NCBI GenBank assembly: GCA_025041175.1
Contig: JAKCFJ010000003.1
Location: 434,001 to 498,000, forward strand
Source: Halobacteriales archaeon YIM A00010
GTDB lineage: Archaea; Halobacteriota; Halobacteria; Halobacteriales; Haloarculaceae
Direction of reading: 5' to 3'
DNA length: 64,000 nt
A program made the translations under genes and the position numbers. Below the pieces are notes generated by a model. That model was not told the origin of the DNA, ran no database searches, and saw only the letters and a program-made list of their open reading frames with translations. Below, one piece after another: positions 12,868-43,077 of this stretch; the first letter of the stretch is position 1, and each line of letters begins with the position of its first letter.

Positions 12868-13236
12868 TTCACCACCTCCTTAACGGAACTTTTCCGAGTA
12901 ATATCCTAATTGCTGGGACGATGTTCGTATATTTCGTGGTTCCCATATACTTTTTCCTCCATACTGAGTGGGTATGGCATACCAAATAAAACTTACGCAC
13001 AGCCGACACGGCGGCGCAGCGCGCTCCGATCGTCCGTTCTCGAACGCAACAGCTGTCTCCGAGCACAGCTCGGAGCACTGATCGCGTACGGATTTCTCCG
13101 CATCGGATTTTTCGATGAACAGCGTTCTATGTCGCCTTCGGTGCACTGGACAGTGGCCTAATCATCTACCAGCCACTCGTATATTGTCATAAAATAATAC
13201 GAATGACTTTTCACTGCTGTTCGAATACGCGTGAGC
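12868..13236. promoter_or_regulatory. Divergent promoter region with GGTATGGCATACC palindrome
   Basis: This 369-nt region separates the symporter operon from the M20 gene. A 13-nt palindrome, GGTATGGCATACC, lies at 12971-12983 next to an AT-rich tract. A TATA-like sequence around 12896-12906 faces the symporter operon, and another AT-rich box at about 13188-13200 lies 30-40 nt before the M20 start. The palindrome is a candidate operator for either direction. Confidence 0.4.
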
Positions 13237-14409: not shown

Positions 14410-14579
14410 CTGGTTCCAGTCGGACACGACTCAGCAGGCCTCGCGTTTGATCCAACATTGTACCAAGACGGGGGGATAGCAGGAAATTTTCCTCCCAAAT
14501 AAATATTTCATGGAAATTGGTGTCGATAATACCATCATATTTACAAGGCATTACGACAATGCGATAGGTAGAATCAATC

Positions 14580-14786
14580 ATGACAGTATTTGGCATGTCG
14601 GAATCGATGTTCCTCGTGTTCCTTGCGACGCTCCTCGCGGGGAGTCTGGGAGCGTTCCATTACGTGGTCGTCCACGTGATACTCGGAAAACCAACGAACG
14701 AAGTACCAAGCGACCGCGCTGGGGAGGCAAGCGGCCCCGTGAGTGATCGCACGACCGATGGAGGTCGAACGGATGGCAGACGTTAA
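14580..14786 (+). CDS. Small one-helix membrane protein preceding a symporter
   Basis: This 68-residue protein (MTVFGMSESMFLVFLATLLA...) has one strong hydrophobic helix at about residues 9-32 and a hydrophilic charged tail. It overlaps the following symporter start by 14 nt in a different frame, so the two are translationally coupled. It parallels the 52-residue protein in front of the symporter at 11.1-12.7 kb, although the sequences are not obviously alike. The likely role is as a small subunit or assembly partner of the symporter. An in-frame ATG at 14595 is an alternative start. Confidence 0.7.
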   Translation: MTVFGMSESMFLVFLATLLAGSLGAFHYVVVHVILGKPTNEVPSDRAGEASGPVSDRTTDGGRTDGRR

Positions 14787-16212
14787 TCCGTTCTACCTCG
14801 GGACGTTCGTCGTGTATCTCCTCATCGTGCTTGCCATCGGCGTTTGGGGGTACACCAAAACGTCTGATGTCATGGACTTCTGGGCGTTCGGCAAGGAGAT
14901 GGGACCGTGGCTAGCCACGTGGTCGTTCGTCGCAAATTTCGTGAGTGCGGTCAGCGTCATCGGATTCATCGGTGCGGTCTACGGCGAGGGTTACTCGCTG
15001 ATGACCCACACCATCTTCGGGTTGATGCTCGGGACGAGCGCGCTTTATTTCGCAGTTGATCGGGTACGTAACCTCGATCTACTGACGTTTCCGGACATCA
15101 TTGCCAGCGTGACGGGCTACGAAATCGCCCGGCCCATCGCGGGCGCGGTGCTGCTCGGTAATGGGTGGCTGTATCTGGTCATGCAACTCGTCGGCGCGAG
15201 CCTTTTGGTGACTACCATCACCGGCGTTTCCTACGAGTACATGGTGTGGGTCATCGGCGTCGTGTTCATCGCCTACACCGTGCTCGGTGGGCTGGTCAGC
15301 GTTGCGTGGACCGACTTCTTACAAGGGACGCTCATGGTCGGTGCGGTGTTGCTTTCGCTCGGGTACATGCTGTTCGACCTCGGCGGATTCACCGCCGTCA
15401 ACCAACAGTTCGCCACGCTCGATTCCTCGTACGTCCACCCCACGAGCGAGGGCGCGTACACTGCCGTCGGCATCGTGGCGACGATCGTCGCCTTCTTCGG
15501 GACCATCTTCACCGAACAGAACAACATCGTGCGCATCGCCGCAACGAGAAATGTCAAGACGGCGAAGCTCCACCTCGCTGCGGGCGGTGTTATTCTGTCG
15601 GTGTTCTATTCGGCGCTCGTCGTTCTCGGCGGCGCTACGACGGTCGCGCTCGACGCAAACGGACTCGCTGTCCAGACCCAGGACGCGGCGTTTCCCACGC
15701 TCATCACCGAGTACGTCCCCTCGAGTGTCGGCGTTATCATCATCCTCTCGGTCATGAGCGCCATTCTCTCGACGACGGACACGCGTCTGCACTCGACCGG
15801 CATCACCACTGCGCGCGACATCTACAGCTACTTCCGTCCGGCGGCCAGTGGCGACGCCCAACTTCGGGTCTCGCGGGCCGCAACCATCCTCTTCGGGCTT
15901 ACGGCGACTGCGGCGGCAGTCAACCCGCCGGGGACCATCATCGAGCTCTACAACTTCCGGGCGATCCTACTGACCAGTGCGTTCCTCGTTCCGGTGTACC
16001 TGGGGCTCTACTGGGCCGGTTTGAGTGGACGGGCCATCCTCGTGTCCGTGGTTGCTGGTGCGGTGCTCGGCGTCGGGACCGAACTCACGGGAGGCCTGTT
16101 CGGCGTCCCGCCGACGTTCATCGGGGTCGGTGCGGCAACGCTCGTGCTCCTCATCAGCCACATTCTCCTCCAAGGCACCGAGCCGAAGGGCGGGGTGATG
16201 GCGGGTGACTGA
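14773..16212 (+). CDS. Sodium:solute symporter (SSS family)
   Basis: About 479 residues with roughly 13 helices. SSS landmarks are the LGGLVSVAWTDFLQG segment near residue 175 and a SVMSAILSTTDTRLHSTGITTARDIYSYF stretch in the second half. I chose the ATG at 14773 (MADVNPFYLG) because the family N-terminal helix starts shortly after it; the ORF is open upstream to 14743. It overlaps the small membrane protein gene. Downstream lie one copy of the ~100-nt repeat element and an N-carbamoyl-amino-acid hydrolase, so an N-substituted amino acid or its product is the probable cargo. Substrate remains inference. Confidence 0.87.
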   Translation: MADVNPFYLGTFVVYLLIVLAIGVWGYTKTSDVMDFWAFGKEMGPWLATWSFVANFVSAVSVIGFIGAVYGEGYSLMTHTIFGLMLGTSALYFAVDRVRNLDLLTFPDIIASVTGYEIARPIAGAVLLGNGWLYLVMQLVGASLLVTTITGVSYEYMVWVIGVVFIAYTVLGGLVSVAWTDFLQGTLMVGAVLLSLGYMLFDLGGFTAVNQQFATLDSSYVHPTSEGAYTAVGIVATIVAFFGTIFTEQNNIVRIAATRNVKTAKLHLAAGGVILSVFYSALVVLGGATTVALDANGLAVQTQDAAFPTLITEYVPSSVGVIIILSVMSAILSTTDTRLHSTGITTARDIYSYFRPAASGDAQLRVSRAATILFGLTATAAAVNPPGTIIELYNFRAILLTSAFLVPVYLGLYWAGLSGRAILVSVVAGAVLGVGTELTGGLFGVPPTFIGVGAATLVLLISHILLQGTEPKGGVMAGD

Positions 16213-16235
16213 CCGCGTAACGAGCGTGTTCGTGG

Positions 16236-16340
16236 CTGATACTGTCGGCCCTGCGGATGGAGTGCGACGGACTAGCCAGCTGCTGTCTGGCGGTTCCACC
16301 ACCAGCCGATACGCGATCACCGCTGTCCGACAGTATGAAC
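16236..16340 (-). repeat. ~100-nt terminal-inverted-repeat element, copy A
   Basis: Ends are ATACTGTCGG and CTGTCCGACAGTAT, inverted copies of each other, flanked by CTG on one side and GAAC on the other. This is the most diverged of five copies, and its interior runs opposite to copies B, D and E. It lies 24 nt after the symporter stop and before the hydrolase start at 16423. Confidence 0.8.
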
Positions 16341-16422
16341 GTCTTTCGGGAACGGCGCGCTCGCGCGCCACGTCGCTTCCCTGCGAGACCGCCGACAGCA
16401 CCGATCGGGTGGGGGGTGTGGC

Positions 16423-17664
16423 GTGACGCTTCGTCTCGACCGCGATCGCCTCGTCGCGACGATGGAAGAACAGGCGACGTACGGCGCTACTGAGGACGGG
16501 GGCCTGCATCGGCTCGCGCTCACCGAAGCCGATGGTGAGATCCGAGACTGGTTCATCGACCAGCTCCGGGGGGCCGGTCTCTCGGTCCGCGTCGACGAGT
16601 TCGGCAACATCTTCGGCCGACGGAAAGGGAGCGACCCAGATGCCCCACCGGTGTTGCTGGGCTCGCACCTCGATTCCCAGCCGAACGGCGGGATCTACGA
16701 CGGGGCGCTCGGCGTGGTTGCGGCCCTGGAGTTCGTCCGCGCGCTGAACGACGACGAGATCGAGACGACTCGACCCGTCGAGGTCGTGAGCTGGACGAAC
16801 GAGGAGGGGTCGCGCTTCCAGCCGGCAATGCAGGGCAGCGGCGTTTGGGCCGGTGCGCACGACATCGACGTCGAACGTGCGAAGACCGACGACGACGGCA
16901 GTACGCTCGGTGAAGCGCTCGAGGACATCGGGTATCGGGGAGACGTTCCGGCGGAGCCGGACACCGAGTACGAAGCCTATCTCGAGCTCCACATCGAGCA
17001 GGGACCGAAGCTCGCGGCGGCCGGAGCGGACGTGGGCGTCGTCACCGGCATCGTCGGGTTCACGTGGGGCGCGGTTACCTTCCGCGGCGAGGCGGATCAC
17101 TCCGGTCCGACGCCGATGCGCCACCGCAGCGACGCTCTCGTGGCTGCTGCCGACCTGATCACTGCGATTCGCCGCATTCCCGGAACGCTCGGCGACCGGA
17201 CGGTCGGGACCGCTGGCTACGTCCACGCCGAACCGAACTCCATCAACGTCATCCCCGGAGAAGCGACGGTAACGTGGGGATTTCGTGATCCCGACGACGC
17301 TGTGGTCGAACGGGCGTACCAGCGGGTGCTCGCGGAGGCCGAGCACGCGGCCGAAAGAGAGGGCGTCGACTACCAGACCGAAGAGCGCATGCGTGCGCCG
17401 GCGATCTCCTTCCCGGACCGCCCTGTCGACGCCGTTCGTCGGGCAGCCGACGCCCGCGGCTCCCAGTACCTCGAACTGGTCAGCGGTGCGGGCCACGACG
17501 CGACTCACCTCACGTCCGTGTGCGATACCGGCATGGTGTTTGCCGTCAGCGAGGGCGGTACGAGCCACTCACCGGCGGAGTTCACCAGCTGGGACGACTG
17601 CTACGAGGCGGCAACCGTTCTCGCGAACGCGGCGCTGGCGCTGGCCAACAACACGACGGGGTGA
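16423..17664 (+). CDS. Zn-dependent N-carbamoyl-amino-acid hydrolase / allantoate amidohydrolase family
   Basis: The 413-residue protein belongs to the M20-related HyuC/AllC/beta-ureidopropionase group. It has LLGSHLDSQPNGGIYDGALGV (metal ligands His and Asp), WTNEEGSRFQPAMQGSGVWAG (catalytic Glu-Glu), LELHIEQGPKL, and a C-terminal SGAGHDATHLTSVC with a ligand His. These residues distinguish it from ordinary peptidases: this group removes the N-carbamoyl group of ureido acids, releasing CO2, NH3 and the amino acid. N-carbamoyl-beta-alanine would link it to the aminotransferase/MmsA pair, but L- or D-carbamoyl amino acids are equally possible. A GTG start at 16423 gives the family-like N-terminus; no better ATG exists nearby. 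Confidence 0.88.
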   Translation: MTLRLDRDRLVATMEEQATYGATEDGGLHRLALTEADGEIRDWFIDQLRGAGLSVRVDEFGNIFGRRKGSDPDAPPVLLGSHLDSQPNGGIYDGALGVVAALEFVRALNDDEIETTRPVEVVSWTNEEGSRFQPAMQGSGVWAGAHDIDVERAKTDDDGSTLGEALEDIGYRGDVPAEPDTEYEAYLELHIEQGPKLAAAGADVGVVTGIVGFTWGAVTFRGEADHSGPTPMRHRSDALVAAADLITAIRRIPGTLGDRTVGTAGYVHAEPNSINVIPGEATVTWGFRDPDDAVVERAYQRVLAEAEHAAEREGVDYQTEERMRAPAISFPDRPVDAVRRAADARGSQYLELVSGAGHDATHLTSVCDTGMVFAVSEGGTSHSPAEFTSWDDCYEAATVLANAALALANNTTG

Positions 17665-17692
17665 ACTGTCACAAGCAGGCCGCTGTCTCGCA

Positions 17693-17799
17693 GTTCATAC
17701 TGTCGGACAGCGGTGATTGAATATCGAATGCGATGAACCGACAGACAGCAGCTGGATATTCCGTCTCAGTCCGTCCGTGGCTCTGTCCGACAGTATCAG
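17693..17799 (+). repeat. ~100-nt terminal-inverted-repeat element, copy B
   Basis: Begins GTTCATACTGTCGGACAG and ends CTGTCCGACAGTATCAG, with inner arms GAATATC and GATATTC. It fills the gap between two convergent genes. The terminal T of the inverted repeat at 17796 is part of the stop codon of the reverse-strand M20 gene. Confidence 0.88.
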
Positions 17800-19058
17800 C
17801 CGGTGACGCCCATCAGATCGGCTGTCGACGCGGCCATCACTTTCGTTGCGGTCACGATTTCCTCGACCGGTACGAATTCGTCGACGACGTGGGCCTGTTC
17901 GAGCAGCCCGGGACCGTAGACGATGCATTCCTCGATACCCGCGTCGTTGACGACGAACCGCTGGTCGTCGGAGCCGGGCGAGACCACGGGAGTGGTCTCG
18001 CTGTAGAACTCGAGGATGTTCTCCGTGTACGTCCGGCCGACCGTGCAGTCTGCCGGGACGCTCGTGGGTTCGGCGAACATGACCTCGTCGTACTCGAACG
18101 TCTGACCCGTCTCGGATTCGGCGTCGTCCAGTAGGCCGCGTATCTCCCCACGGGCGCTCTCGACGGTCTCACCGGGGACGAGCACGCGGTAGAACGTCGC
18201 CCGGCACCGGTCAGGAACGACGTTTTCGGAGTAGCCGGCGTCTATCATCGTTGCAGAGATGTCTGCGTGGCGCGACTCCGGCGGCGTAACCGGGAGATCA
18301 GTCGTCCGGGCGTGGAGTTCGTCCTCGTACGCATCGATTCGTCCGAGGAAATCGTTCATCGCCATGACGGCGTTCGCGCCGTCGTGGGCCATGCAGCCGT
18401 GGGATTTCGAGCCGTGGGCGGTGACGTGGAATTTCAGGACGCCCCGGTGGCCGAGACAGATTCGAGAGGAATCGAAACACTCCGTATAGACGCAGTAATC
18501 AGTGTTCTCCGGGGAGATGTACCCCTCGTCGACGAGGTATCCGAGCCCGGTGAATCCACCCGTCTCCTCGTCGACGGTCATGCTCTGGGTGACCGACCCG
18601 CGGAGATCGACGCCCGCAGCTTCCAGCGCGTCGACGGCGAAGAGGCTGGCCGCGATGCCGGATTTCATGTCGCTTGCGCCCCGGCCGTAGATGCGCCCGT
18701 CCGCAACGACGGGATCGTACGGGTCGTGGCTCCAGTCTTCCCCCGCGGGGACGACGTCGAAGTGGCCCGTGAAGTGGATGTCCGGTCCCGACAGCTCGCC
18801 CGTCTTCCGTCCCAGTACGTTTACGCGCTCGTGATCGGTCCGTTCGGGATACTGCTCCGCGACGATCTCCTCGGGAACGGTAACCGTCTCGACACCGTAC
18901 CCCCGATCGTCCAGTTCGCTGGCGAGAAACTCCGCGCCGTCCCGGTAGTTTCGACCGGGCGGGTTCTCCGTTTCGACGGCGAGGAACTCCCGCAGGAACG
19001 CGAGGATAGCGTCCTCACGGTCCTCGACCGCGTCGTAGATGTCTCGCTTGGTAACCAT
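17796..19058 (-). CDS. M20-family metallopeptidase/deacetylase
   Basis: This 420-residue M20 protein has FTGHFDVVPAGEDWSHDPY (first metal ligand), YGRGASDMKSG (bridging Asp), VDEETGGFTGLGYL (catalytic Glu) and a dimerisation domain with a GSKSHGCMAHDGANA segment. Like the gene at 13.2 kb it most resembles acetylornithine/succinyl-diaminopimelate deacylases, whose members hydrolyse many N-acyl amino acids. It starts 1 nt after the stop of the upstream SDR gene, so the two form one operon. Its stop codon coincides with the edge of repeat copy B. The exact substrate is unknown. Confidence 0.87.
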   Translation of the reverse strand: MVTKRDIYDAVEDREDAILAFLREFLAVETENPPGRNYRDGAEFLASELDDRGYGVETVTVPEEIVAEQYPERTDHERVNVLGRKTGELSGPDIHFTGHFDVVPAGEDWSHDPYDPVVADGRIYGRGASDMKSGIAASLFAVDALEAAGVDLRGSVTQSMTVDEETGGFTGLGYLVDEGYISPENTDYCVYTECFDSSRICLGHRGVLKFHVTAHGSKSHGCMAHDGANAVMAMNDFLGRIDAYEDELHARTTDLPVTPPESRHADISATMIDAGYSENVVPDRCRATFYRVLVPGETVESARGEIRGLLDDAESETGQTFEYDEVMFAEPTSVPADCTVGRTYTENILEFYSETTPVVSPGSDDQRFVVNDAGIEECIVYGPGLLEQAHVVDEFVPVEEIVTATKVMAASTADLMGVTG

Positions 19059-19059
19059 G

Positions 19060-19812
19060 TTAGATATCCCGCCCCCCGTCTACTTCGAGCACGGTCCCCG
19101 TCACCATCGACGATTCCTCGCTAGCGAGGAAGGCAGCAGCGCTAGCGATGTCCTCCGGTTGGGCCAGCCGGCCCAGCGGAATGGTTTCGGCCATCGCATC
19201 GACGCTCAGGCCGGCCCCCGCAAACTCCGGAAGCATGTCGGTGTCCGTCGCGACCGGACAGACAGCGTTGACCCGGATCCCGTCTTCGGCGAGTTCGTAC
19301 GCCAACTGCTTCGTGAGGGTTATCATCCCACCTTTGGCCGCAGCGTAGGCCGAAAGGCCCGTCCGAGGGCGGACAGCCGCCGTAGACGCTGTGTTGAGAA
19401 TGACGCCACCGCCCTGTTCGCGCATGTGGGGAACGGCCTTCTTGGCACCGAGGAACGCGCTCTTCAGGTTCACCTCCTGAATACGATCCCACGTCCGTTC
19501 GGTCACGTCCTCGACCGGCGTCGACTCCTGGGGAATCCCAGCGTTGTTGTGGAGGACGTCGATGCTCCCAAACGTCTCGACGGTCCGCTCAATGAATGAC
19601 GCCACGTCTCCCGGATCGGAAACGTCCCCACTCATGGCGATGGCCGTGCCGTCACCCGCGTCTTCGATGTTCGAAACCGTCTCGACGGCAGCGTCGCCGT
19701 CGATGTCAACGACGGCGACGCGAGCACCACGCTCCACGAACAGGCGGGCTGTCGCCCGGCCCATTCCGGATCCCGCGCCAGTGATGACTGCTGCTTTGTC
19801 ATCCAGCATCAT
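19060..19812 (-). CDS. Short-chain dehydrogenase/reductase (SDR)
   Basis: About 250 residues, classical SDR. It has the TGAGSGMGRATA cofactor motif near residue 14, LHNNAGI near 92, a catalytic Ser in ILNTASTAAV and the YAAAKGG catalytic Tyr-Lys. An acidic residue after beta-2 (VVDIDGD) predicts NAD(H) preference. A closing EVDGGRDI motif is typical. ATG at 19812 or 19809 suits the family; the open frame upstream is not SDR-like. It is followed at 1 nt by the M20 gene, suggesting oxidation of an alcohol linked to an amide substrate. Substrate unknown. Confidence 0.87.
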   Translation of the reverse strand: MMLDDKAAVITGAGSGMGRATARLFVERGARVAVVDIDGDAAVETVSNIEDAGDGTAIAMSGDVSDPGDVASFIERTVETFGSIDVLHNNAGIPQESTPVEDVTERTWDRIQEVNLKSAFLGAKKAVPHMREQGGGVILNTASTAAVRPRTGLSAYAAAKGGMITLTKQLAYELAEDGIRVNAVCPVATDTDMLPEFAGAGLSVDAMAETIPLGRLAQPEDIASAAAFLASEESSMVTGTVLEVDGGRDI

Positions 19813-20132
19813 GGTCAACAGTAACCACGTCCCTCCTTCAATGTATCGGACAAAATTCGAATAGAGGTGGGAATTGTAGTACTGTGGCTGTGTAACGTTC
19901 TTTTCGGACAAATTCATCCACACGCGACCGGCTTGCAGCCGTTCGGGGTCCTCCCCGACCCGCTCGTTGGGAGCGCTATGTCGATGCCCACCGGTCTACG
20001 GAGTTACCGAGCGCTCCTTGAACTACTGTCTGCGAACTGCTGGGGGAGTCGGACTGGCGCTCAGAACGTACGTCTCTCGGGTGATGTGTGGCAACGACCG
20101 AGACGTTTCACTCACAAACGGGAGACCGGGAG
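19813..20132. other. Intergenic region upstream of the SDR/M20 operon
   Basis: About 320 nt between the SDR start and the end of the next symporter gene. It should contain the operon promoter just above 19812, but no clear repeat, RNA or gene was recognised. Confidence 0.35.
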
Positions 20133-21593
20133 TCAGTCCGAGTCGTAGCCCGAACCAGCCGAGAACTTCGCGAGCAACCCCGTTTCCCTGTCCGGGAACG
20201 CGTAGCTTCCAACGACGAACGCGAGGAAGCTGAGAAGGATCCCCGGGATGATCGGCTCGTTCCACGCACCGAACGAGATGTAGCCCAACGCCTCGAGGCC
20301 GACGACGAGACTCCCGGTAGCGATAGCGAGGAACGACCCCATCGCAGTTCCGCCGTCCCAGTAGTGGCTCCCGATGTACGGAACGAAGATGCCCGCAGCA
20401 CGGAACGAGAACGAGAACATGAGCACGGCGACGATCACGTCTATCTTGAGGAGCGCAACGACGATCGCCACAGCACCGAGAACAGCCGTGGTTATCTTGG
20501 TGTAACGACCGAGCGTCTCGGGAGACGCGTTGGGATTGACGTACTCCTCGTAGATGTCGTTGACGACGATGGTAGAAGCGGCGACGAGGTCGGAGTCGGC
20601 GCTAGACATCGTTGCGGACACGAGCGCTCCGAACAGGATGCCAACGAGAATGTCTGGCATAACGACGGTTGCGAACCCGGGGAGCACGTACCGGGAGCCG
20701 TACTCCTGGACGAACGGGATGGTGTGGCCCTGTTGCTGATACGTAAGGGTGGCCAAACCGAGTATCGCGGGGAAGAAGGCGAACAACACGTAAGATCCCG
20801 CGGCTCCGAGCGAGCCGATTTTGGCGGCGGAGTCGCTCTCGGCCGCGAAGTATCGCTGGACGTACTCTTGGCCGACAGAGAAGCTCGTGAAGTAGATGAC
20901 CGATAGGCTGAGAATTTGTCGCCAACCGATGCCCTCCGTCAGGCTGAACCGCCACGGTTCGAGTTGGGTCTGCATCGCTCCCCAGCCACCGACCGTATCG
21001 AGGGCGAACGGCACCGCGACGATGACGCCGCCAATGACGAATATCCACTGGAACACGTCGGTAAACGTGACGCTCCAGAGGCCGCCGACCATGGAGTAGC
21101 CCACGGCGATGAGTCCCATCAACAACACGCCGGTCTGGTACTCGACGCCCACGAGGATGGAGAAGACGATGCCCGAAGCCATGATCTGGATGGCTGTCAA
21201 GCCGATCATCGGGAGCAACAGAACGACGGCGGTGATGAGGTGGTTCCCGGTGCCGTATTCCCGCTTGAAGAATTCCGAGACGGTGGTCGTCAGTGTCGAC
21301 CGGAGGCGGGGCGCGATAAAGGCCAGGGCGACGAACGCAGGGGCCATTGCGATGACGTACCACGCGGCAGAAAGCCCCCAGTCGCCAAAGCCTTGTTGTG
21401 CGACGCCCATCGAACTGCCACCGCCGACTTCCGTTGCAGCGAGCGTTCCTGCAATGAACACGGGTCCGAGCCGCTTGCCAGCGAGCATGAAATCGTCGTC
21501 GGTCTTGACGTTCCGTGCGGCGTACAGGCCGATTGCGAGGATGCCCAGAATGTACAACGTCGTAACCACGAGTACAGTGGTTGACAATGCCAT
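20133..21593 (-). CDS. Sodium:solute symporter (SSS family)
   Basis: About 486 residues with 13 predicted helices and the SSS hallmarks VGGLWSVTFTDVFQWIFV and an ATMSSADSDLVAASTIVVNDIY segment. The ATG at 21593 is preferred over an in-frame TTG at 21599. A 14-nt palindrome ends 37 nt before this ATG, with a TATA-like TTTAAAAT between. No small membrane partner is encoded immediately upstream, unlike the other two symporters here. Downstream genes run the same way but are separated by ~320 nt. Cargo is likely a product or substrate of the hydrolases in the cluster; this is inference. Confidence 0.87.
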   Translation of the reverse strand: MALSTTVLVVTTLYILGILAIGLYAARNVKTDDDFMLAGKRLGPVFIAGTLAATEVGGGSSMGVAQQGFGDWGLSAAWYVIAMAPAFVALAFIAPRLRSTLTTTVSEFFKREYGTGNHLITAVVLLLPMIGLTAIQIMASGIVFSILVGVEYQTGVLLMGLIAVGYSMVGGLWSVTFTDVFQWIFVIGGVIVAVPFALDTVGGWGAMQTQLEPWRFSLTEGIGWRQILSLSVIYFTSFSVGQEYVQRYFAAESDSAAKIGSLGAAGSYVLFAFFPAILGLATLTYQQQGHTIPFVQEYGSRYVLPGFATVVMPDILVGILFGALVSATMSSADSDLVAASTIVVNDIYEEYVNPNASPETLGRYTKITTAVLGAVAIVVALLKIDVIVAVLMFSFSFRAAGIFVPYIGSHYWDGGTAMGSFLAIATGSLVVGLEALGYISFGAWNEPIIPGILLSFLAFVVGSYAFPDRETGLLAKFSAGSGYDSD

Positions 21594-21630
21594 GTACAAT
21601 CACATCAATCCACATTTTAAAGAACCGCTC

Positions 21631-21644
21631 CCTCCCATGGGAGG
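21631..21644. promoter_or_regulatory. Palindrome CCTCCCATGGGAGG upstream of a symporter
   Basis: A perfect 14-nt palindrome just upstream of a TATA-like TTTAAAAT, exactly 37 nt before the symporter ATG at 21593. An identical palindrome with the same flank (GCTCCCTCCCATGGGAGG) occurs at 24335-24348 at the same distance from another start. Its position upstream of the TATA box suits an activator site. Confidence 0.65.
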
Positions 21645-21682
21645 CACCAGCTCGCGGTAGTCGTGTATCGGCACGCGCCTCG

Positions 21683-22396
21683 CTATTCGATATCGTTCAG
21701 GATCTTCGCTTCGGCTTTCCGAAGGTGTTCGAGGAAGGTCGTCTTCGAGATGTCCAATTCCGCCGCGAGTTCGCGCGCCGTTGCCTCGCGGGGCCACTGG
21801 TAGTAGTCGTTCTTCCGGGCGAATTCGAATATCTCGCGCTGTCGTTCGGACAGCTGTCTCATGAGGGGAGCGTCCTCCGCGTGCGCCCGGCTGGTCGGCG
21901 TGATACGGGTGACCTCGATCTCTGCGTCGTAGTCGCGGCGGATTTCGTCGAGTAGATCCTGGACCGTCTCCCGGTCGTGATGGGCGACGAGAGACCATTC
22001 CTCGCTACCGTCCCTGATGTTGGTCGGGCCGTCGTAAATAAAGCCCCGGGAGATGAACGCTTCGTCAATGCTGTTGGCAGCGTCGTATTCGACGAAGATC
22101 TCTTGGGTCACGTTTCCTGGTGGTGTGATTGAATCGGACTGTGACCGAAATGTGTGCTGAATCTCCTGAACGGACTGCGTCAATCGTGACTCGCGCGTCT
22201 CAGCGATGAGTGCGTTTACCGCGTCAGCGTCGTCTCCATACACGGTGAATCGCCCGTTTACGACGCCCTCGGCAGTCGTGTGCGCACCGTGTCCACGTAA
22301 TCTCGCGTTAGTGCGTTCTGTCACACGAATCGTCCAGCACTCCGGGTGCCACAGTTCGATGGAAAGCCGGAGCATTTCGTTCGTGGTGTCAGTCAT
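21683..22396 (-). CDS. HTH-10 (bacterio-opsin activator-like) transcriptional regulator
   Basis: About 237 residues from ATG 22396. The C-terminal ~55 residues form an HTH-10 domain: LSERQREIFEFARKNDYYQ, then TARELAAELDISKTTFLEHLRKAE. The N-terminal ~150 residues are a divergent ligand or sensor region containing a segment beginning LWHPECWTIRVTE, seen in other haloarchaeal members. Such proteins regulate neighbouring catabolic genes. It lies between the two copies of the CCTCCCATGGGAGG palindrome, and its own promoter carries an ATCCCTCTCGAGGGAT inverted repeat just after the TATA-like box. It is therefore the best local candidate for binding these sites; direct evidence is lacking. Confidence 0.85.
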   Translation of the reverse strand: MTDTTNEMLRLSIELWHPECWTIRVTERTNARLRGHGAHTTAEGVVNGRFTVYGDDADAVNALIAETRESRLTQSVQEIQHTFRSQSDSITPPGNVTQEIFVEYDAANSIDEAFISRGFIYDGPTNIRDGSEEWSLVAHHDRETVQDLLDEIRRDYDAEIEVTRITPTSRAHAEDAPLMRQLSERQREIFEFARKNDYYQWPREATARELAAELDISKTTFLEHLRKAEAKILNDIE

Positions 22397-22410
22397 GATA
22401 CTGTCACTAA

Positions 22411-22426
22411 ATCCCTCTCGAGGGAT
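22411..22426. promoter_or_regulatory. Inverted repeat ATCCCT-CTCG-AGGGAT in the regulator promoter
   Basis: Lies 14 nt before the HTH-10 ATG and overlaps the downstream edge of a TATA-like run of T residues at about 22424-22433 (reverse strand). A protein bound here would block initiation, which suggests autorepression. It shares TCCC and GGGA half-sites with the palindromes at 21631 and 24335, but with a wider spacer. Confidence 0.5.
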
Positions 22427-22631
22427 AAAAAATCGGTGTAGCCGAGCACCAGGTGGACCTCGTGGGAACGACTCGACCACCTCCGGCCGAATCGGCTGGC
22501 GGGTTCGAGAAGCACGACTGTATCCATCAGATCGGGTCTGTCCCGCTCCGTCGGTCCCGTGGATTGGAGTACTAGTCAATCAGGCGGATAACACCCGAAC
22601 AGTCTCGGTTGTGGACGCCGTTCGTTCCCGT

Positions 22632-22853
22632 ATGCGTAACCAACAGACGCCCCTTGGACCGACCGAAGAAGCAGCTCTCGAACGGCTGCGGGAGGACTAC
22701 GAACCGATTACGGATGGGTTCTCGCGGACGGTCGCCGTCGACGCTCTCGAAACGATCGATCTCGAGCCGTCTGTTGCCAACAGCGCGCTCGATGGGCTTC
22801 TTTCGAAGGGCTATCTGTACGAGGTCGACGGGAGTCTGTACATCACCGACTGA
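22632..22853 (+). CDS. Small protein, possible winged-helix-like
   Basis: A 73-residue frame, MRNQQTPLGPTEEAALERLR..., predicted mostly helical and ending in a beta-hairpin-like LSKGYLYEVDGSLYITD. The pattern of helices followed by a short wing-like hairpin resembles small haloarchaeal winged-helix proteins, but I do not recognise a named family. It is divergent from the HTH-10 gene. Its TGA stop overlaps the first base of repeat copy C. GTG codons slightly upstream in the same frame could extend it. Confidence 0.6.
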   Translation: MRNQQTPLGPTEEAALERLREDYEPITDGFSRTVAVDALETIDLEPSVANSALDGLLSKGYLYEVDGSLYITD

Positions 22854-22948
22854 TACTGTCGGACCTACGGACGGAGTGCGGCGGAATATCAAGCTGCTGT
22901 CTAGCAGTTCACAGCATCTGATATTCGGCACTGTCCGACAGTATGAAC
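22850..22948 (-). repeat. ~100-nt terminal-inverted-repeat element, copy C
   Basis: Flanked CTG...GAAC, ends ATACTGTCGGAC and CTGTCCGACAGTAT, inner arms GAATATC and GATATTC. Its interior is in reverse orientation relative to copy B. The TGA stop of the 73-residue gene overlaps the start of the inverted repeat. Confidence 0.85.
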
Positions 22949-23061
22949 CACACGAGATTCGGACGCGTTCGAGACGGGGAAGCTCGCCCGCTCCTCGGAC
23001 AGCTGCTGGACCCATCGCCCGATCGAGATCGATGGCTTGCGCCCCCCGACGGCAGCGAGCG

Positions 23062-24297
23062 TCACTCCTCGTTCGCCTTCTCACACACGGCTTGAAGGAG
23101 CACGTTCGTCCCGACAACCACGTCCTTCCACGCGGTGTACTCGTCTTCGGTGTGGCTCACCCCGTCGACGCTCGGAACGAAGATCATGCTCGTCGGACAG
23201 ACATCGTTGAGATAGTTGGCGTCGTGGCCCGCCCCACTAACCATTCGCATGGACGGCGCACCGACCGTCTCAGCGGCTCGTGCGACCGTCTCGATGCAGT
23301 CCGTATCGAACGGATCAGCGTCGACGCGCATGATCTCTTCGAGCTCCCACGCGACGTTCTCGCGGTCGGCAGCCCATCTGATCTCGTCGCGCACCTGCGA
23401 CACAGCCTCGTCGACGACAGCGTTGTCGTACGAGCGGAGGTCGATCGTGAACTCGACCGTTTCCGGGATGACGTTGATCGAGTTCGGGGAGACGTCGATC
23501 GACCCGACGGTTCCCACCAGGTCCGTGCCGGTCGCAGCGGTCAGTCGCCGTACCCCGGTCACGACGTTCGCGGTTGCCACCATCGCGTCGTGGCGGAGGT
23601 GCATCGGCGACGGTCCCGCGTGGTCGGCCGTTCCCTCGAACCGGGCGTTCAGCCAGGAGAAGCCATACACCCCCTCGACCACCCCGACACTACACTCGTT
23701 TTCGTCGAGATACGGTCCCTGCTCAACGTGGAGTTCGAAGTAACAGTGCGGGTCGCCCGCTGCCGGTGCATCCCCCTTGTAGCCGATTCGATCGAGTTCG
23801 TCACCGAAGCGATGGCCGTCCTTGTCCGTGCGGTCGTACGCGTACCCGCGGTCGAACGTCCCCGTGTAGACGCCGCTCCCGAGCATGTCGGGCTGGAATC
23901 TGACGCCTTCCTCGTTGCTCCAGGCCACGACCTCCAGCGGCCGTTGGGTCTGTACGTTTTCCTCGTTCAGCGTCTCGATGATCTCCAGCGCGCCGAGGAC
24001 GCCGATAACACCGTCGAATCGCCCTCCATTGTACTGGCTGTCGACGTGCGAACCGAAGAGAACCGGTGGTTCGTTGGGGACAGTCCCGTCCGTTCGCCCG
24101 AAGACGTTACCCATCTCGTCGACCGTGACAGCCAGTCCCGCGTCGGCAAACCACTCGACGAGCGTATCCCGTGCTTCCTTGTTCGTATCCGAGAGCGAGG
24201 GCCGATCCACCCCATCCCGTTCGGTCGCTCCAATCTCGTTGAATCGCTCGAACCGCCGTCGGAATCGGTTGTCGTCAACAGTCAACTCGGGGTTCAT
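23062..24297 (-). CDS. Zn-dependent N-carbamoyl-amino-acid hydrolase / allantoate amidohydrolase family
   Basis: About 411 residues, same HyuC/AllC group as the gene at 16.4 kb. It has LFGSHVDSQYNGGRFDGVIGV, WSNEEGVRFQPDMLGSGVYTG, FELHVEQGPYL, the substrate-side WLNARFEGTADHAGP, and C-terminal SGAGHDANYLNDVC. All metal and catalytic positions expected for the group are present. ATG 24297 is chosen because upstream codons run through a TATA-like region and the CCTCCCATGGGAGG palindrome located exactly 37 nt upstream. It is divergent from the D-aminoacylase-like gene, and the pair shares this palindrome. N-carbamoyl-D- or L-amino acids are the probable substrates. Confidence 0.88.
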   Translation of the reverse strand: MNPELTVDDNRFRRRFERFNEIGATERDGVDRPSLSDTNKEARDTLVEWFADAGLAVTVDEMGNVFGRTDGTVPNEPPVLFGSHVDSQYNGGRFDGVIGVLGALEIIETLNEENVQTQRPLEVVAWSNEEGVRFQPDMLGSGVYTGTFDRGYAYDRTDKDGHRFGDELDRIGYKGDAPAAGDPHCYFELHVEQGPYLDENECSVGVVEGVYGFSWLNARFEGTADHAGPSPMHLRHDAMVATANVVTGVRRLTAATGTDLVGTVGSIDVSPNSINVIPETVEFTIDLRSYDNAVVDEAVSQVRDEIRWAADRENVAWELEEIMRVDADPFDTDCIETVARAAETVGAPSMRMVSGAGHDANYLNDVCPTSMIFVPSVDGVSHTEDEYTAWKDVVVGTNVLLQAVCEKANEE

Positions 24298-24334
24298 ATC
24301 CCTATTCTGGAGTCGCTTTGGTTTTATTTCGCTC

Positions 24335-24348
24335 CCTCCCATGGGAGG
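24335..24348. promoter_or_regulatory. Palindrome CCTCCCATGGGAGG between divergent hydrolase genes
   Basis: Second copy of the perfect 14-nt palindrome. It is 37 nt from the reverse-strand hydrolase ATG (24297) and 36 nt from the forward D-aminoacylase-like ATG (24385), with AT-rich boxes on each side (AATAAAAC to the left, GTGTTTAG to the right). The symmetric placement fits one activator driving both genes. Confidence 0.65.
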
Positions 24349-24384
24349 CGGCGTGTTTAGATGTCTGACCTGGTATCGTCAATC

Positions 24385-26013
24385 ATGACACGTAGCATCG
24401 AATTCCAGAACGTAACCGTGGTCGATGGATCAGGACGCGACCGGTTCATTTCGAACGTGCTCGTCGAGGGAGAGCGGATTCGCCGTGTGTCCGACGATCC
24501 GTCGGGAGCAGACCGTGAAATGAATCTCGAGGGGTGTGTGCTCACCCCCGGATTCATCGACATGCACGCACACTCGGAGCTGCGATTACTCGACCATCCC
24601 GGTGCTGCGGAGAAGCTCACCCAGGGATTCACCCTCGAGGTCGGCGGACAGGACGGAGTGAGCGTGGCTCCGGTCCCCGAATCGCTCAAGCCGGAGTGGG
24701 AAAGACGCGTCCAGACGCTGCTCGGACGGACGGACGAATGGAACTGGAATTCGGTCGGCGAGTTCCTCGAGCGGCTCGGGACCGCCGACCCCGCCATCAA
24801 CTGCGCGTACTACGCCCCTCACGGGAACCTTCGCTCGACGGTAGCGGGGTTCGAGGACAGGCAACTCGATCCCGAGGAGATGAGAAGGGTACAGGACGCG
24901 CTCACCGCGGCGATCGATGCGGGCGCGTTTGCGATGTCGAAGGGGATGATTTACCCACCGAGTTCCTACGGTGGGGACGAGGAGTACGTCGCCCTCGCGG
25001 AGACGCTCGGCTCCCGGAATTCGTTCATGGTCTCACACGTGTGGAACGAGACCGACTGCGTCGTCGAGTCGATCGAACGATACATCGACATCTGTGAGCG
25101 AGGCGGCTGTGATCCCCACGTCTCCCATCTGAAGGTGGGTGGCAAGCAGAACTGGGGTCACTCCACCGTGGTCCTCGACGCCTTCGATGGGGCCACCGAG
25201 CGCGGGGTGGAGGTGACCTTCGACCAGTATCCGTACACCGCCGGGTCGACGATGCTGACAGCACTCCTCCCGCCCTGGGCGCGACAAGGCGAGAGTGACG
25301 ACATTCTCGACAGACTCACAGATCCCCAACAACGTCGGATGATCCACGCGGCCATCAAGTCCCCCGAAGGCGAGTGGGAGAACCTCGTGAAGGCCGCCGG
25401 CACCTGGGACAACATCCTCATCACGCGAACGGCGAGCGGGAAGTTCGAGGGAAAGACCATCAGTGACGTGGCGTCCGCCTGGAACGTCGATCCCCTCAAC
25501 GCGATGTGTGACTTGCTGGTGAAAGAGGACCTCGACGTCACGATGGCCGATTTCATAATGAACGAGGACGACATCGAACGCTTTCTCGCGGACGAGCGCG
25601 GTACCATCTGCTCGGACGGCATCTTCGGCGGCAAACCCCACCCCCGCACGATCGCTACCGGGGCGCGAATCCTTGAACGTTACGTCCGTGAGAAGGGGAT
25701 TCTCCCGCTCGAAACGGCCGTTTTCAAACTCGCCGGCCATCCAGCCGACGTGCTCGGACTCCCCGACAGGGGTCGCATCGAGGACGGCTGTATCGCGGAC
25801 CTCGCTGTCTTCGATCTCGACGCTGTCGAAGAGCGAGCGACCTACGAGGATCCGATGAATCTCTCGCGCGGCATCGAGTACGTGCTCGTAAACGGCGAGA
25901 TCGTGGTGGACCAGGGCGTCCCCACCGGAAAGCGCCCGGGGCAAGTCCTCCGGTCCACCGACGAATGGACTGGGTCGGAACGACCACGGCTCCGGAGCCG
26001 GCAGGAGAAATAA
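24385..26013 (+). CDS. N-acyl-D-amino-acid deacylase (D-aminoacylase)-like amidohydrolase
   Basis: About 542 residues of the amidohydrolase superfamily. The PGFIDMHAHSELRLL stretch near residue 60 gives the HxH metal pair. VSHLKVGGKQNWG lies mid-protein, and the catalytic Asp sits in TICSDGIFGGKPHPR. The C-terminal GRIEDGCIADLAVFD returns to the urease-like beta-sandwich, followed by a hydrophilic tail. The family hydrolyses N-acyl-D-amino acids to D-amino acid and carboxylate. The ATG at 24385 puts a TATA-like box at leaderless distance and is 36 nt from the shared palindrome; an ATG at 24361 is possible. The divergent carbamoyl hydrolase suggests both act on N-substituted D-amino acids or hydantoin products. 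Confidence 0.87.
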   Translation: MTRSIEFQNVTVVDGSGRDRFISNVLVEGERIRRVSDDPSGADREMNLEGCVLTPGFIDMHAHSELRLLDHPGAAEKLTQGFTLEVGGQDGVSVAPVPESLKPEWERRVQTLLGRTDEWNWNSVGEFLERLGTADPAINCAYYAPHGNLRSTVAGFEDRQLDPEEMRRVQDALTAAIDAGAFAMSKGMIYPPSSYGGDEEYVALAETLGSRNSFMVSHVWNETDCVVESIERYIDICERGGCDPHVSHLKVGGKQNWGHSTVVLDAFDGATERGVEVTFDQYPYTAGSTMLTALLPPWARQGESDDILDRLTDPQQRRMIHAAIKSPEGEWENLVKAAGTWDNILITRTASGKFEGKTISDVASAWNVDPLNAMCDLLVKEDLDVTMADFIMNEDDIERFLADERGTICSDGIFGGKPHPRTIATGARILERYVREKGILPLETAVFKLAGHPADVLGLPDRGRIEDGCIADLAVFDLDAVEERATYEDPMNLSRGIEYVLVNGEIVVDQGVPTGKRPGQVLRSTDEWTGSERPRLRSRQEK

Positions 26014-26083
26014 CAAGTTGGTAATACGGTTTTATCTGGAAGAACGGATGGAAGTAGGCCCTCATCCGAACCGTTATATTGAT

Positions 26084-26100
26084 TCCCACCTTAGGTGGGA
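26084..26100. promoter_or_regulatory. Operator-like palindrome TCCCACCTTAGGTGGGA upstream of an AbrB antitoxin
   Basis: A perfect 17-nt inverted repeat with one central base, ending 2 nt before the AbrB ATG at 26103 and just downstream of an AT-rich TTATATTG at about 26074-26081. This placement is usual for autoregulation by a VapBC complex. Confidence 0.65.
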
Positions 26101-26102
26101 TT

Positions 26103-26390
26103 ATGACAACAGTGGACTCGAAAGGGCGAATCGTTCTCCCACAGGAGCTGCGGGAGGCGCTCGGAATCACCCCCGGCACCGAAGTCGAAATCCACGAGAA
26201 AGACGGGAAAGCCGTCGTCGAACCGGAAGACGACCCCGAACGGATCATCGAACGAATGGACACACTCCTCGCGGGCATCTCCGGCGACAGACACCCCACA
26301 CCGTATGACGAACTCGACCCGCAATCGAAAGATCACGTAGACACGATTCGCAGACAGGCCCAGTCCGACTCCGAGACCAGCGATGAGTGA
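26103..26390 (+). CDS. AbrB/SpoVT-type antitoxin (VapB-like)
   Basis: This 95-residue protein begins with a swapped-hairpin AbrB domain (TTVDSKGRIVLPQELREALG, then TPGTEVEIHEKDGKAVVEP). A hydrophilic acidic tail follows, which would contact the toxin. It overlaps the PIN-domain gene by 8 nt, the usual antitoxin-first layout. The ATG at 26103 is chosen because it directly follows the palindrome and gives the correct domain start. It would neutralise the toxin and repress its own promoter via the palindrome. Confidence 0.88.
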   Translation: MTTVDSKGRIVLPQELREALGITPGTEVEIHEKDGKAVVEPEDDPERIIERMDTLLAGISGDRHPTPYDELDPQSKDHVDTIRRQAQSDSETSDE

Positions 26391-26844
26391 GGGGCCGTAT
26401 CTGTTCGACGTCGGAGTGACGGCTCTCGCCCATTCGAATGCACCCGTCAACGATGCAGCCCTCTCGTACGTGCGACGGGCGATTGCGGGAGAGATCGACG
26501 CGATCGTTCCGTATGCGTCAGTCGTCGGGGCTCACAATGCCTTGACGACCTACTATGGAGTCTCGAACGACCGTGCGTCAACACTCATGCAGAACTTCAT
26601 GGATGCGAAACGAATCCATTGGTACGAGGGGATGTCCGAAGAGGTGGTTCGTGGCGGGCTTTCTCGGGCGAGCGAAACGAATATCGGTGGATGGGACGGA
26701 TACTACGCACACGTTGGGAGGGAGGAAGGCGTCGAGACAGTGCTTACTATTGACAATGACTTCGAGAAGGTGCCAGGAATCAACGCGAACGTCATCCTGT
26801 CTTCCGAAGAATTCGCCGCGCTGAACGAATATCTCGGGTACTAA
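26383..26844 (+). CDS. PIN-domain ribonuclease toxin (VapC-like)
   Basis: The 153-residue protein has a PIN-like pattern: LFDVGVTALAH with the first acidic residue near position 9, and GWDGYYAHVGREEGVETVLTIDNDFEKV with two Asp residues near 106 and 125 that would bind Mg2+. A Glu in the middle (ASETN) may supply the fourth acid. Overlap with the AbrB gene makes a complete type II toxin-antitoxin pair. PIN toxins cleave RNA, often tRNA or rRNA; the target here is unknown. Confidence 0.82.
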   Translation: MSEGPYLFDVGVTALAHSNAPVNDAALSYVRRAIAGEIDAIVPYASVVGAHNALTTYYGVSNDRASTLMQNFMDAKRIHWYEGMSEEVVRGGLSRASETNIGGWDGYYAHVGREEGVETVLTIDNDFEKVPGINANVILSSEEFAALNEYLGY

Positions 26845-26879: not shown

Positions 26880-28115
26880 CTACCGATTGGTGCCGTACAG
26901 CTCCTGCACGTCGCCCAGATCGGGATCGATGTGCGTGACGTCTCCGGTCGCTTTCATCGCGCTCTTGGTGTCTTTCAGTCCATTGCCAGTGACGACGACG
27001 CAGACCGACTCGGCCGGCTCGATGATTCCCTCGGCGAGAGCCGTACGCACGCCAGCGACGGGGGCAGCCCCCGCCGGCTCGGCGTAGATCCCCTCCGTAC
27101 TCCCGAGCGTCCGCTCTGCCGCTAGAATCTCCTCGTCGGTGACGAGGAGCGACGTGCCACCGCTCTCTTCGAGTGCTTTGCAGGCTTTGACCGTGTTTCG
27201 AGGCCGACCCACCGCGATGCTGTCGGCGAGCGTCTCAGCGACCTCGGTGACGTCGTCGTGGTCGTGGAAGACCTCGTGGATCGCGCTCGCTCCCTCCGCC
27301 TGTACGCCGAGCATCTTCGGCGTGTCGTCGACGAACCCGAGATCGGCCATCTCCCGGTAGCCTTTCCATCCGCCGTAGATGGTACAGCCATCACCCATCG
27401 AGAAGACGAGCCAATCGGGGGGATCCTCGCGCGTCTGTTCGGCCAATTCCAGGCCAACCGTTCGTTTGCCCTCCACTTGGAATGGGTTGATAGCGGCGTT
27501 TCGGTTGTACCAGCCGTACTCCTCGGTCGCTTCCGTGCTGAGATCGTACGCCTCGTCGTAGGTCCCGTCCACGGCGAGGACGTCGGCCCCGTAGACGAGC
27601 GGCTGGGCCAGTTTTCCCTCGGGCGCTGCCCCCGGGACGAAGATGCGACAGTTTACGCCCGCCCGAGCTGCATACCCCGACAGCGAGGCGGCGGCGTTTC
27701 CCGTCGACGCGCAGGTGACGACGTCCCGTCCGTGTTCGCGCGCCTTCGTCACTGACACGCTGCTCGCGCGGTCTTTCAACACGCCTGTCGGGCAGTGGCC
27801 GTCGTCTTTGACCTGTGTGTCGACCCCCAGTTCCGCGGAGAGATTCGGCGCTTCGTACAGCTCCGTGCCACCCTCGTTCAACGTCACCGGCTCGGTCTCC
27901 TCGTGAACAGGGAGGAATGCGCGGTATTTCCACTGGCTCGGAATGGTCCCGTCCACTGCCTCCTCGAACCGGTCGAGGACGACGTCGTAGTCGTATTCGA
28001 CTTCGAGAATCCCCTTCACGCCCTCGTGGTTCGGACAGGTGTAGATGACTTGATCCGGATCGTACGTCGCCGAGCAGAGGGTACAGCGAAGCGTCTGCAC
28101 ATGGTCCATAACCAT
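26880..28115 (-). CDS. thrC: Threonine synthase
   Basis: This 411-residue PLP enzyme has an N-terminal zinc-ribbon-like segment (CTLCSATYDPDQ, then YTCPNHEG) found in archaeal threonine synthases. The PLP lysine lies in CPTGVLKDRASSVS, a phosphate-loop ASTGNAAASLSGYAA follows, and VVTGNGLKD lies near the C-terminus. It makes threonine from O-phosphohomoserine. No other threonine genes adjoin. The start is at 28115 or the ATG two codons on (28109). Many haloarchaea have more than one threonine-synthase-like gene, so this copy may have a related role. Confidence 0.88.
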   Translation of the reverse strand: MVMDHVQTLRCTLCSATYDPDQVIYTCPNHEGVKGILEVEYDYDVVLDRFEEAVDGTIPSQWKYRAFLPVHEETEPVTLNEGGTELYEAPNLSAELGVDTQVKDDGHCPTGVLKDRASSVSVTKAREHGRDVVTCASTGNAAASLSGYAARAGVNCRIFVPGAAPEGKLAQPLVYGADVLAVDGTYDEAYDLSTEATEEYGWYNRNAAINPFQVEGKRTVGLELAEQTREDPPDWLVFSMGDGCTIYGGWKGYREMADLGFVDDTPKMLGVQAEGASAIHEVFHDHDDVTEVAETLADSIAVGRPRNTVKACKALEESGGTSLLVTDEEILAAERTLGSTEGIYAEPAGAAPVAGVRTALAEGIIEPAESVCVVVTGNGLKDTKSAMKATGDVTHIDPDLGDVQELYGTNR

Positions 28116-28734
28116 GTCCCCTCGTACGTGGCCACGGAACAGAAATCACCCGCCTTCCATGGACGGGGTGGGTGCGAGAATCGTGACTGCTGCACCCCAT
28201 GTGAGTAAATGTTAATAAATACCAATATTATATTACTATTTATGATTACTATAGATAATACCGAGATATAATTACTTATAATCAGATGGGTCGTCGTGAT
28301 CGATCGTGTTGATAGGTTATTCGTGTTAGTGGGACGGTGGTGGGTAGTCTCGATACCGACCAAGCTCCTCTATACCACCGTTCTGATAGACGTATCAACA
28401 GAAATTTTGTTGTTGTATTATATTATGATCATATTATTTGAGAATCAATAGAATGGTCGATTCACAATCGATCTAAGACGTGTGCCACCACGACCGCTCT
28501 CCGACTCGGTATGCTCTCGTCCACCAGTGTACGGCAGCCCCGCGAGTCCTGACTGCCGAGCATCGGGCGAACTCAGCTGTGGGCATATTCGAGATCGGTG
28601 AACGATACGAAAGTATTCGCGTTCCAGGAATTCGATTTGGATACTGACCGGCTGTTCGAGGACCGACGGACAGATTTCGACGGCAGTGAAATACAGGCTG
28701 TGGTTTTTTCCTGCTCATTACAGTACCTCGGTGT
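28116..28734. other. AT-rich intergenic region
   Basis: About 620 nt with a markedly AT-rich core at 28205-28290 and again at 28385-28450, including a TATGATCATA palindrome near 28425. It contains the threonine synthase promoter on its left. A short open frame at 28598-28783 overlaps the next gene and is not recognisable. Confidence 0.4.
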
Positions 28735-42978: not shown

Positions 42979-43077
42979 TACTGTCGGACAGAGATGATTG
43001 AATATCAGACGCGGTGAAACGACAGATAGCAGATAGATATTCCGTCTCGATCCATCCGTGGCTCTGTCCGACAGTAG
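42975..43077 (+). repeat. ~100-nt terminal-inverted-repeat element, copy E
   Basis: Begins CTGATACTGTCGGACAG and ends CTGTCCGACAGTA, inner arms GAATATC and GATATTC. Interior orientation as copies B and D. The A of the TAXI gene stop TGA is the first base of the inverted repeat. The last base of the right end differs from the other copies. Confidence 0.85.

Follow-up and report, generated by a model that had tools for sequence, protein, structure and literature searches.

A palindromic promoter element and a neighbouring HTH-10 regulator mark a predicted regulon for amino acid derivative use in a haloarchaeon

In this work we analysed a stretch of 64,000 nucleotides from Halobacteriales archaeon YIM A00010 (hereafter the window; C3:434001-498000 of a 5.97-Mb genome in 7 contigs), in which a short palindrome precedes several catabolic genes that surround a gene for a helix-turn-helix (HTH) protein of the HTH-10 type. 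The regulator gene (21683..22396, minus strand) encodes 237 residues, of which residues 182-233 match HTH_10 (PF04967, 63.1 bits, cut-off 23.1); this was its sole Pfam match, with no match to GAF, PAS or IclR. Four predicted target genes lie around it: a sodium:solute symporter (20133..21593, minus strand; PF00474, 128.9 bits, cut-off 22.8), an M20 amidase of the hydantoinase/carbamoylase type (23062..24297, minus strand), which belongs to the carbamoylase family by TIGR01879 (424.9 bits, cut-off 204), a divergently oriented Amidohydro_3 amidohydrolase (24385..26013, plus strand; PF07969, 86.8 bits, cut-off 29.7) and a threonine-synthase-like pyridoxal phosphate (PLP) enzyme (26880..28115, minus strand; TIGR00260, 227.8 bits, cut-off 167.1). 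An earlier sequence-only reading had called the amidohydrolase D-aminoacylase-like, which we can retain at the level of the superfamily: the passing models were Pfam superfamily models only, while no NCBIfam model exceeded its cut-off (best 25 of 48). This gene set reads most naturally as one for using N-carbamoyl- or N-acyl-amino acids, which would be the presumed substrates.

The palindrome CCTCCCATGGGAGG occurs in two exact copies, at 21631-21644 before the symporter gene and at 24335-24348 between the divergent M20 amidase and amidohydrolase genes, and the exact 14-mer is found at no third place in the genome. The two copies share 20 bp (CGCTCCCTCCCATGGGAGGC), beyond which their flanks diverge. 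Among the 35 perfect inverted repeats of the window with two 6-bp arms and a 2-nt spacer, CCTCCCATGGGAGG is the sole 14-mer present twice, and the relaxed form CCTNNCATGNNAGG matched the genome only at these two sites, compared with 15 matches of a reversed control. Looser matches behave as background. With up to 3 mismatches the window holds 4 matches against 3.0 expected, so that the weight rests on the exact copies alone; with up to 2 mismatches the genome holds 16 places, likewise 16 for the reversed control. The 14 places with 1-2 mismatches, in total not above the control, lie mostly in surroundings that look coding by eye in the printed flanks, and one of them, C4:782749, looks promoter-like.

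Re-measuring reproduced the proposed spacing of the palindrome, 37 nt to the symporter ATG (21593), 37 nt to the M20 amidase ATG (24297) and 36 nt to the amidohydrolase ATG (24385). We scanned the window for sites that deviate from the pattern in no more than 1 of its 10 fixed positions and lie 34-42 nt upstream of the ATG of an open reading frame (ORF) of at least 80 aa. This yielded these three genes and additionally the threonine-synthase-like gene, whose degenerate putative operator CCGTCCATGGAAGG (read towards the gene; 28153..28166, minus strand) deviates from CCTNNCATGNNAGG at one position and lies 37 nt before the ATG at 28115. An additional match at 3103 has 2 mismatches and precedes an 86-aa ORF. 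As the sequence-only reading had stated, the palindrome sits just upstream of TATA-like words, which we identified by reading as TTTAAAA (21615..21621, minus strand) for the symporter, AAATAAAA (24322..24329, minus strand) for the M20 amidase and GTTTAGA (24355..24361, plus strand) for the amidohydrolase, the symporter word standing at and just beyond the AT peak described next. In the 66 pairs of site and gene from the survey of regulator homologues below, AT content peaks most strongly 9-12 nt past the palindrome; the ATG follows at about 37 nt, 56 of the 66 pairs having distances of 36-38 nt. This arrangement agrees with a TATA box some 26 nt ahead of a transcription start at the ATG, and the promoters are probably leaderless. 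For Haloferax volcanii, the accessible part of PMC4983044 gives 72% of protein-coding transcripts as leaderless and proposes TTWT as haloarchaeal TATA motif.

Phylogenetic footprinting supports the element. Of 392 genomes of the order, 37, among them that of the window, hold the amidohydrolase at E 1e-140 or better, and we read all 37 clusters, 8 of which hold an HTH-10 homologue within the fetched stretch of 8.8 to 24 kb. In all 8, CCTNNCATGNNAGG occurs with 0-1 mismatch between the amidohydrolase and M20 genes, whereas it is absent from all 29 clusters without an HTH-10 gene, where the best match has at least 3 mismatches. Site and spacing are kept although the amidohydrolases of this group are only 62-67% identical to that of the window: in 7 clusters the ATG lies 34-40 nt from the site on both sides, or 36-39 nt for the likeliest starts of the amidohydrolase/M20 pair, and 34-40 nt also spans 16 further promoters printed from related clusters. 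For the threonine-synthase-like gene, a sequence resembling the operator ends 36-39 nt upstream of the reference start in all 8 clusters, at the same place as in the window, with 0-1 mismatch in 5 clusters, 2 in one and 3 and 4 in the remaining two. The best match before this gene in 8 printed clusters lacking HTH-10 has 3-5 mismatches at scattered positions. In some of the clusters without an HTH-10 gene (e.g. L175, L180 and L184), the divergent promoter displays CACAC/GTGTG-type words in the absence of the palindrome, perhaps the site of another regulator.

We additionally asked how the element is distributed over homologues of the regulator, which occur in 116 of the 392 genomes at E 1e-56. 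The 205 sequences used, which cover part of these places, gave 177 matches and finally 99 non-redundant homologues (<85% identity). Each of the 1024 palindromes of the mask xxxNNxx-xxNNxxx was counted as adjoining a regulator if a match with at most 1 mismatch lay no more than 330 bp from that gene and had an ATG at a distance of 35-40 nt. By this test CCTNNCATGNNAGG adjoins 46 of 99 regulators and ranks first of 1024 (mean 0.42), followed by three of its own variants (32, 11 and 9), while in a distant control at 800-2500 bp it was found at 7 of 99 and ranked 42nd. Without the ATG condition it still came first (51 of 99), ahead of its own variant CCG (42) and of GC-rich words unrelated to it (38 and 35). 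Apart from the regulator's own gene, the genes that follow a site group into 8 sequence clusters, clusters made up solely of regulator-flagged ORFs being left out. Ten such genes were compared with NCBIfam. Nine gave matches short of the curated cut-offs, five to APC-like amino-acid transporters, two to DgcN-like proteins, one to an aldehyde dehydrogenase and one to a class III aminotransferase, and the tenth had no match at 1e-30. The genes are mutually unrelated and mostly resemble genes of amino-acid transport or catabolism. At least 13 sites face the regulator's own gene (17 flagged, 4 with unfitting ORF lengths), and autoregulation through CCTNNCATGNNAGG is therefore likely for other members of the subfamily, but not for the regulator of the window. 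If membership of a CCTNNCATGNNAGG-operator HTH-10 subfamily is defined by an adjacent ATG that a site with no more than 1 mismatch precedes by 35-40 nt, the regulator of the window belongs to it. In 20 genomes searched, the exact pattern is present in 10 and in most of the 20 rarer than its reversed control; genome-wide counts consequently display specificity, not enrichment.

Fixed spacing, the footprint in relatives, co-occurrence and the same operator class at homologous genes together give good support to a small regulon under the control of the neighbouring HTH-10 gene, as the sequence-only reading had proposed for three genes where we find four. Very probably, the palindrome serves this HTH-10 subfamily as its operator. 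We consider it likely that the product of 21683-22396 binds the palindrome as a one-component regulator and activates the four genes. In the model that we propose, a regulator dimer would bind CCTCCCATGGGAGG, a member of the class CCTNNCATGNNAGG, with its centre about 44 nt before the start codon, directly upstream of or abutting the region of the transcription factor B recognition element (BRE) and TATA box of the presumed leaderless promoters. The bound regulator would most likely help to recruit transcription factor B (TFB) and the TATA-binding protein (TBP), which would activate the symporter, the carbamoylase-type amidase, the amidohydrolase and the threonine-synthase-like enzyme, with a single site serving both divergent genes. 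Activation is probably the mode of control, because the site stands immediately ahead of the TATA region. As the likely sensor of the regulator we regard its tandem ferredoxin-like N-terminal domain, a guess from the fold, with a ligand that is perhaps amino-acid-like.

Several observations weigh against this interpretation. The 8 clusters with an HTH-10 gene form one clade of the amidohydrolase tree (support 100/99), and the association of 8 against 29 clusters consequently amounts to one evolutionary split rather than 37 cases. In the eighth cluster (G231) the M20 ATG lies 38 nt from the site, while that of the amidohydrolase lies 50 nt away, and the sites of the threonine-synthase-like gene are degenerate in three of the 8 clusters. 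The mask of 1024 palindromes was picked after the first sites had been seen, and five other masks brought mostly GC-rich words to the top. By the adjacency test, 53 of 99 homologues have no adjacent site. The nearest homologue (G203, 62% identity) is among them, with no site nearby and no exact CCTNNCATGNNAGG in its genome, and the genome of the window holds further HTH-10 homologues (5 matches at E 1e-20), which could bind the palindrome instead. The last two points would suit an explanation in which another regulator, for instance a second HTH-10 protein of the genome, binds the palindrome and the adjacent gene is incidental; with the motif adjoining 46 of 99 homologues compared with 7 of 99 at a distance, and with no site in any of the 29 clusters without an HTH-10 gene, we regard this as improbable.

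Somewhat less improbable, but still unlikely in our view, is that the HTH-10 protein, bound to the palindrome, keeps the four genes repressed as long as no inducer is present. What we observe of operator and regulator is compatible with either sign of control, and the sites before at least 13 of the subfamily's own regulator genes would suit negative autoregulation too. However, the palindrome lies upstream of the TATA region and covers neither the TATA box nor the start, and the relatives NarO and DmsR, as well as Bat, are described as activators in the accessible portions of PMC11218638 and PMC3184054. That the two copies arose by chance, belong to a mobile element or form an RNA hairpin has very little to recommend it. 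Matches with 2-3 mismatches are no commoner than expected, but the fixed spacing, the conservation between otherwise diverged promoters and the first rank among 1024 palindromes speak against such a reading. In a leaderless promoter, moreover, the site would remain outside the transcript, and the two copies have different surroundings beyond 20 bp.

Going beyond the window, we propose, with less confidence than for the four genes but still as the favoured generalisation, that CCTNNCATGNNAGG placed about 44 nt before leaderless starts is the operator class of a whole PAS/GAF-less HTH-10 subfamily in the order of the window's genome. Each member would carry a tandem ferredoxin-like domain and act as a one-component sensor in control of uptake and catabolism of amino acids and D-amino acids (APC-like transporters, DgcN-like enzymes, aldehyde dehydrogenases, aminotransferases and the carbamoyl/acyl amino-acid cluster described here), the inner bases, with or without a CCATGG core, being tuned by HTH residues 208 and 219, and regulator and operator would stay together while targets change. 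A specificity code in these two residues was tried as a candidate and not accepted. Operators with CCATGG do co-occur with R208 (13 of 14, compared with 0 of 29) and with T219 (14 of 14, compared with 4 of 29), mostly within one clade, which is no proof of recognition; columns of the N-terminal domain segregate with the operator about as strongly, and on the tree of this domain the operator label needs 3 changes and T219 needs 4. In these counts the site of L037 was added by hand, while that of L169, likewise hand-added, had no alignment row and was not counted. With midpoint rooting, the same tree places the regulators of the window and of Halocatena marina in the other half than the regulator of the G053 cluster (L043), though their amidohydrolases belong to one clade, and an exchange of regulators inside a conserved cluster is possible.

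The system is of a known kind, with an operator class that we did not find described. The open-licence literature, in the parts accessible, gave no description of this motif, where the motif letters were not a query and subscription journals lie mostly outside the coverage. The nearest published system found is that of NarO and DmsR, which the accessible text of PMC11218638 presents as Bat-type haloarchaeal regulators without PAS/GAF. The regulator of the window falls into this PAS/GAF-less HTH-10 group as defined there and shares with it a short near-palindromic promoter motif repeated before clustered genes. It differs in the motif, which reads CCTCCCATGGGAGG (class CCTNNCATGNNAGG) and not CGAAYATDKTYG, a motif tied in the same text to denitrification promoters and not stated there as bound by NarO, and in function, which is anaerobic respiration there and amino-acid-type catabolism here. 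Bat itself has a C-terminal HTH of the same type and, in the portion of PMC3184054 available, a promoter-proximal activating element of bop, likened here by description only. In contrast to Bat proper, with GAF and PAS before the HTH, the 237-aa protein of the window has HTH_10 alone. XacR, GacR, RhcR and MscR, IclR-type catabolic activators of haloarchaea according to the visible text of PMC11519228, offer the same logic of a local one-component regulator with neighbouring uptake and catabolic genes and with activation, as we propose it here, but belong to an unrelated family, the HTH-10 protein having no IclR Pfam match. HVO_1357 is another Bat-type protein (PMC7824242, seen in part), and CsmR has a different motif by what is accessible of PMC13286277. 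In the portions of the literature examined, few of the numerous haloarchaeal HTH-10 genes have a known binding motif. If the proposed operator class holds true, targets of about half of one large subfamily could be read from genomes, unannotated catabolic clusters would gain substrate hints and the promoters could be tested directly in haloarchaea. One palindrome serving two divergent promoters at equal distance would moreover be a clean case in which to study the way archaeal activators work beside BRE and TATA.

An AlphaFold2 model of the regulator (76 sequences; pLDDT 84.9, pTM 0.63) features two tandem beta-alpha-beta-beta-alpha-beta repeats of the ferredoxin-like kind, followed by the C-terminal HTH. 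The best structural match of the N-terminal domain was Ta1207 of Thermoplasma acidophilum (5m86; Z 10.7, rmsd 3.4, 141 residues), a likeness that comes with 10% identity and leaves out the HTH. The HTH itself resembles sigma region 4 (Z up to 8.7) and NarL (Z 6.3), which for a small domain may reflect a common arrangement only. Against the sequences of the Protein Data Bank (PDB), the regulator had no match below E 0.04.

The sequence-only reading had also pointed to a TCCC...GGGA inverted repeat downstream of the regulator's own TATA-like box and suggested that the regulator represses itself through it. The repeat TCCCTCTCGAGGGA does exist, at 22412-22425, but its half-site is TCCCTC, compared with CCTCCC in the operator. 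By eye and without alignment, the repeat was not seen in the printed upstream stretches of 8 other HTH-10 genes. Inverted repeats with 6-bp arms and a spacer of 0-8 nt occur in the window at about 0.5 per 100 bp (0.05 for the 6-2-6 form), a frequency at which chance is enough to explain TCCCTCTCGAGGGA. We therefore do not retain self-repression through this repeat.

Halocatena marina (G002), which belongs to the same genus as the genome of the window, offers a view on how the site relates to its targets. Its cluster has no match to the symporter in the surrounding 21.6 kb; the palindrome there precedes an ECF-type transporter operon (a CbiQ-type protein, two ABC ATPases and an Asp/Glu/hydantoin racemase; ATG at 35 or 38 nt) and additionally a gene for a MASE1-like membrane protein (ATG at 40 nt). 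Judged by these gene contents, the site follows function, the predicted ECF-type transporter being an unrelated protein in place of the symporter. The Halocatena marina genome holds 5 CCTNNCATGNNAGG sites, 4 of them in this cluster, while in other genomes of the genus there are none in G001, G004 and G005 and one in G003. A further genome, G006, with matches at the same coordinates as G002, on a contig of equal length, and a listed contamination of 9%, is probably a mixed assembly and was left out of the cluster and adjacency counts. G134 has a variant site 37 nt upstream of an M81/MlrC-type gene and also an unlinked exact site flanked by an ATG on each side, at 36 and 37 nt.

Some neighbouring features remain to be described. 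At 13231-19923, a second similar gene set (two M20/DapE-type genes, one carbamoylase-type M20 gene, a second symporter and a short-chain dehydrogenase/reductase (SDR)) adjoins the predicted regulon, and the window scan gave no operator for it. Between the amidohydrolase and threonine-synthase-like genes, which are close neighbours in several relatives, 26079-26844 holds a gene for a MazE-type antitoxin (PF04014) overlapped by a 153-aa ORF that has no Pfam match, perhaps an inserted toxin-antitoxin pair. An element of about 90-100 bp that resembles a miniature inverted-repeat transposable element (MITE), with the terminal inverted repeats ATACTGTCGGAC...GTCCGACAGTAT, is found at 17697-17796, 22853-22944, 38500-38600 and 42978-43077, with a lone end at 16325-16334. 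Its exact pattern has 84 places in the genome compared with 0 for the reversed control, its word ACTGTCGGAC is present 9 times in the window where 0.4 would be expected, and one copy sits between the HTH-10 gene and the M20 gene.

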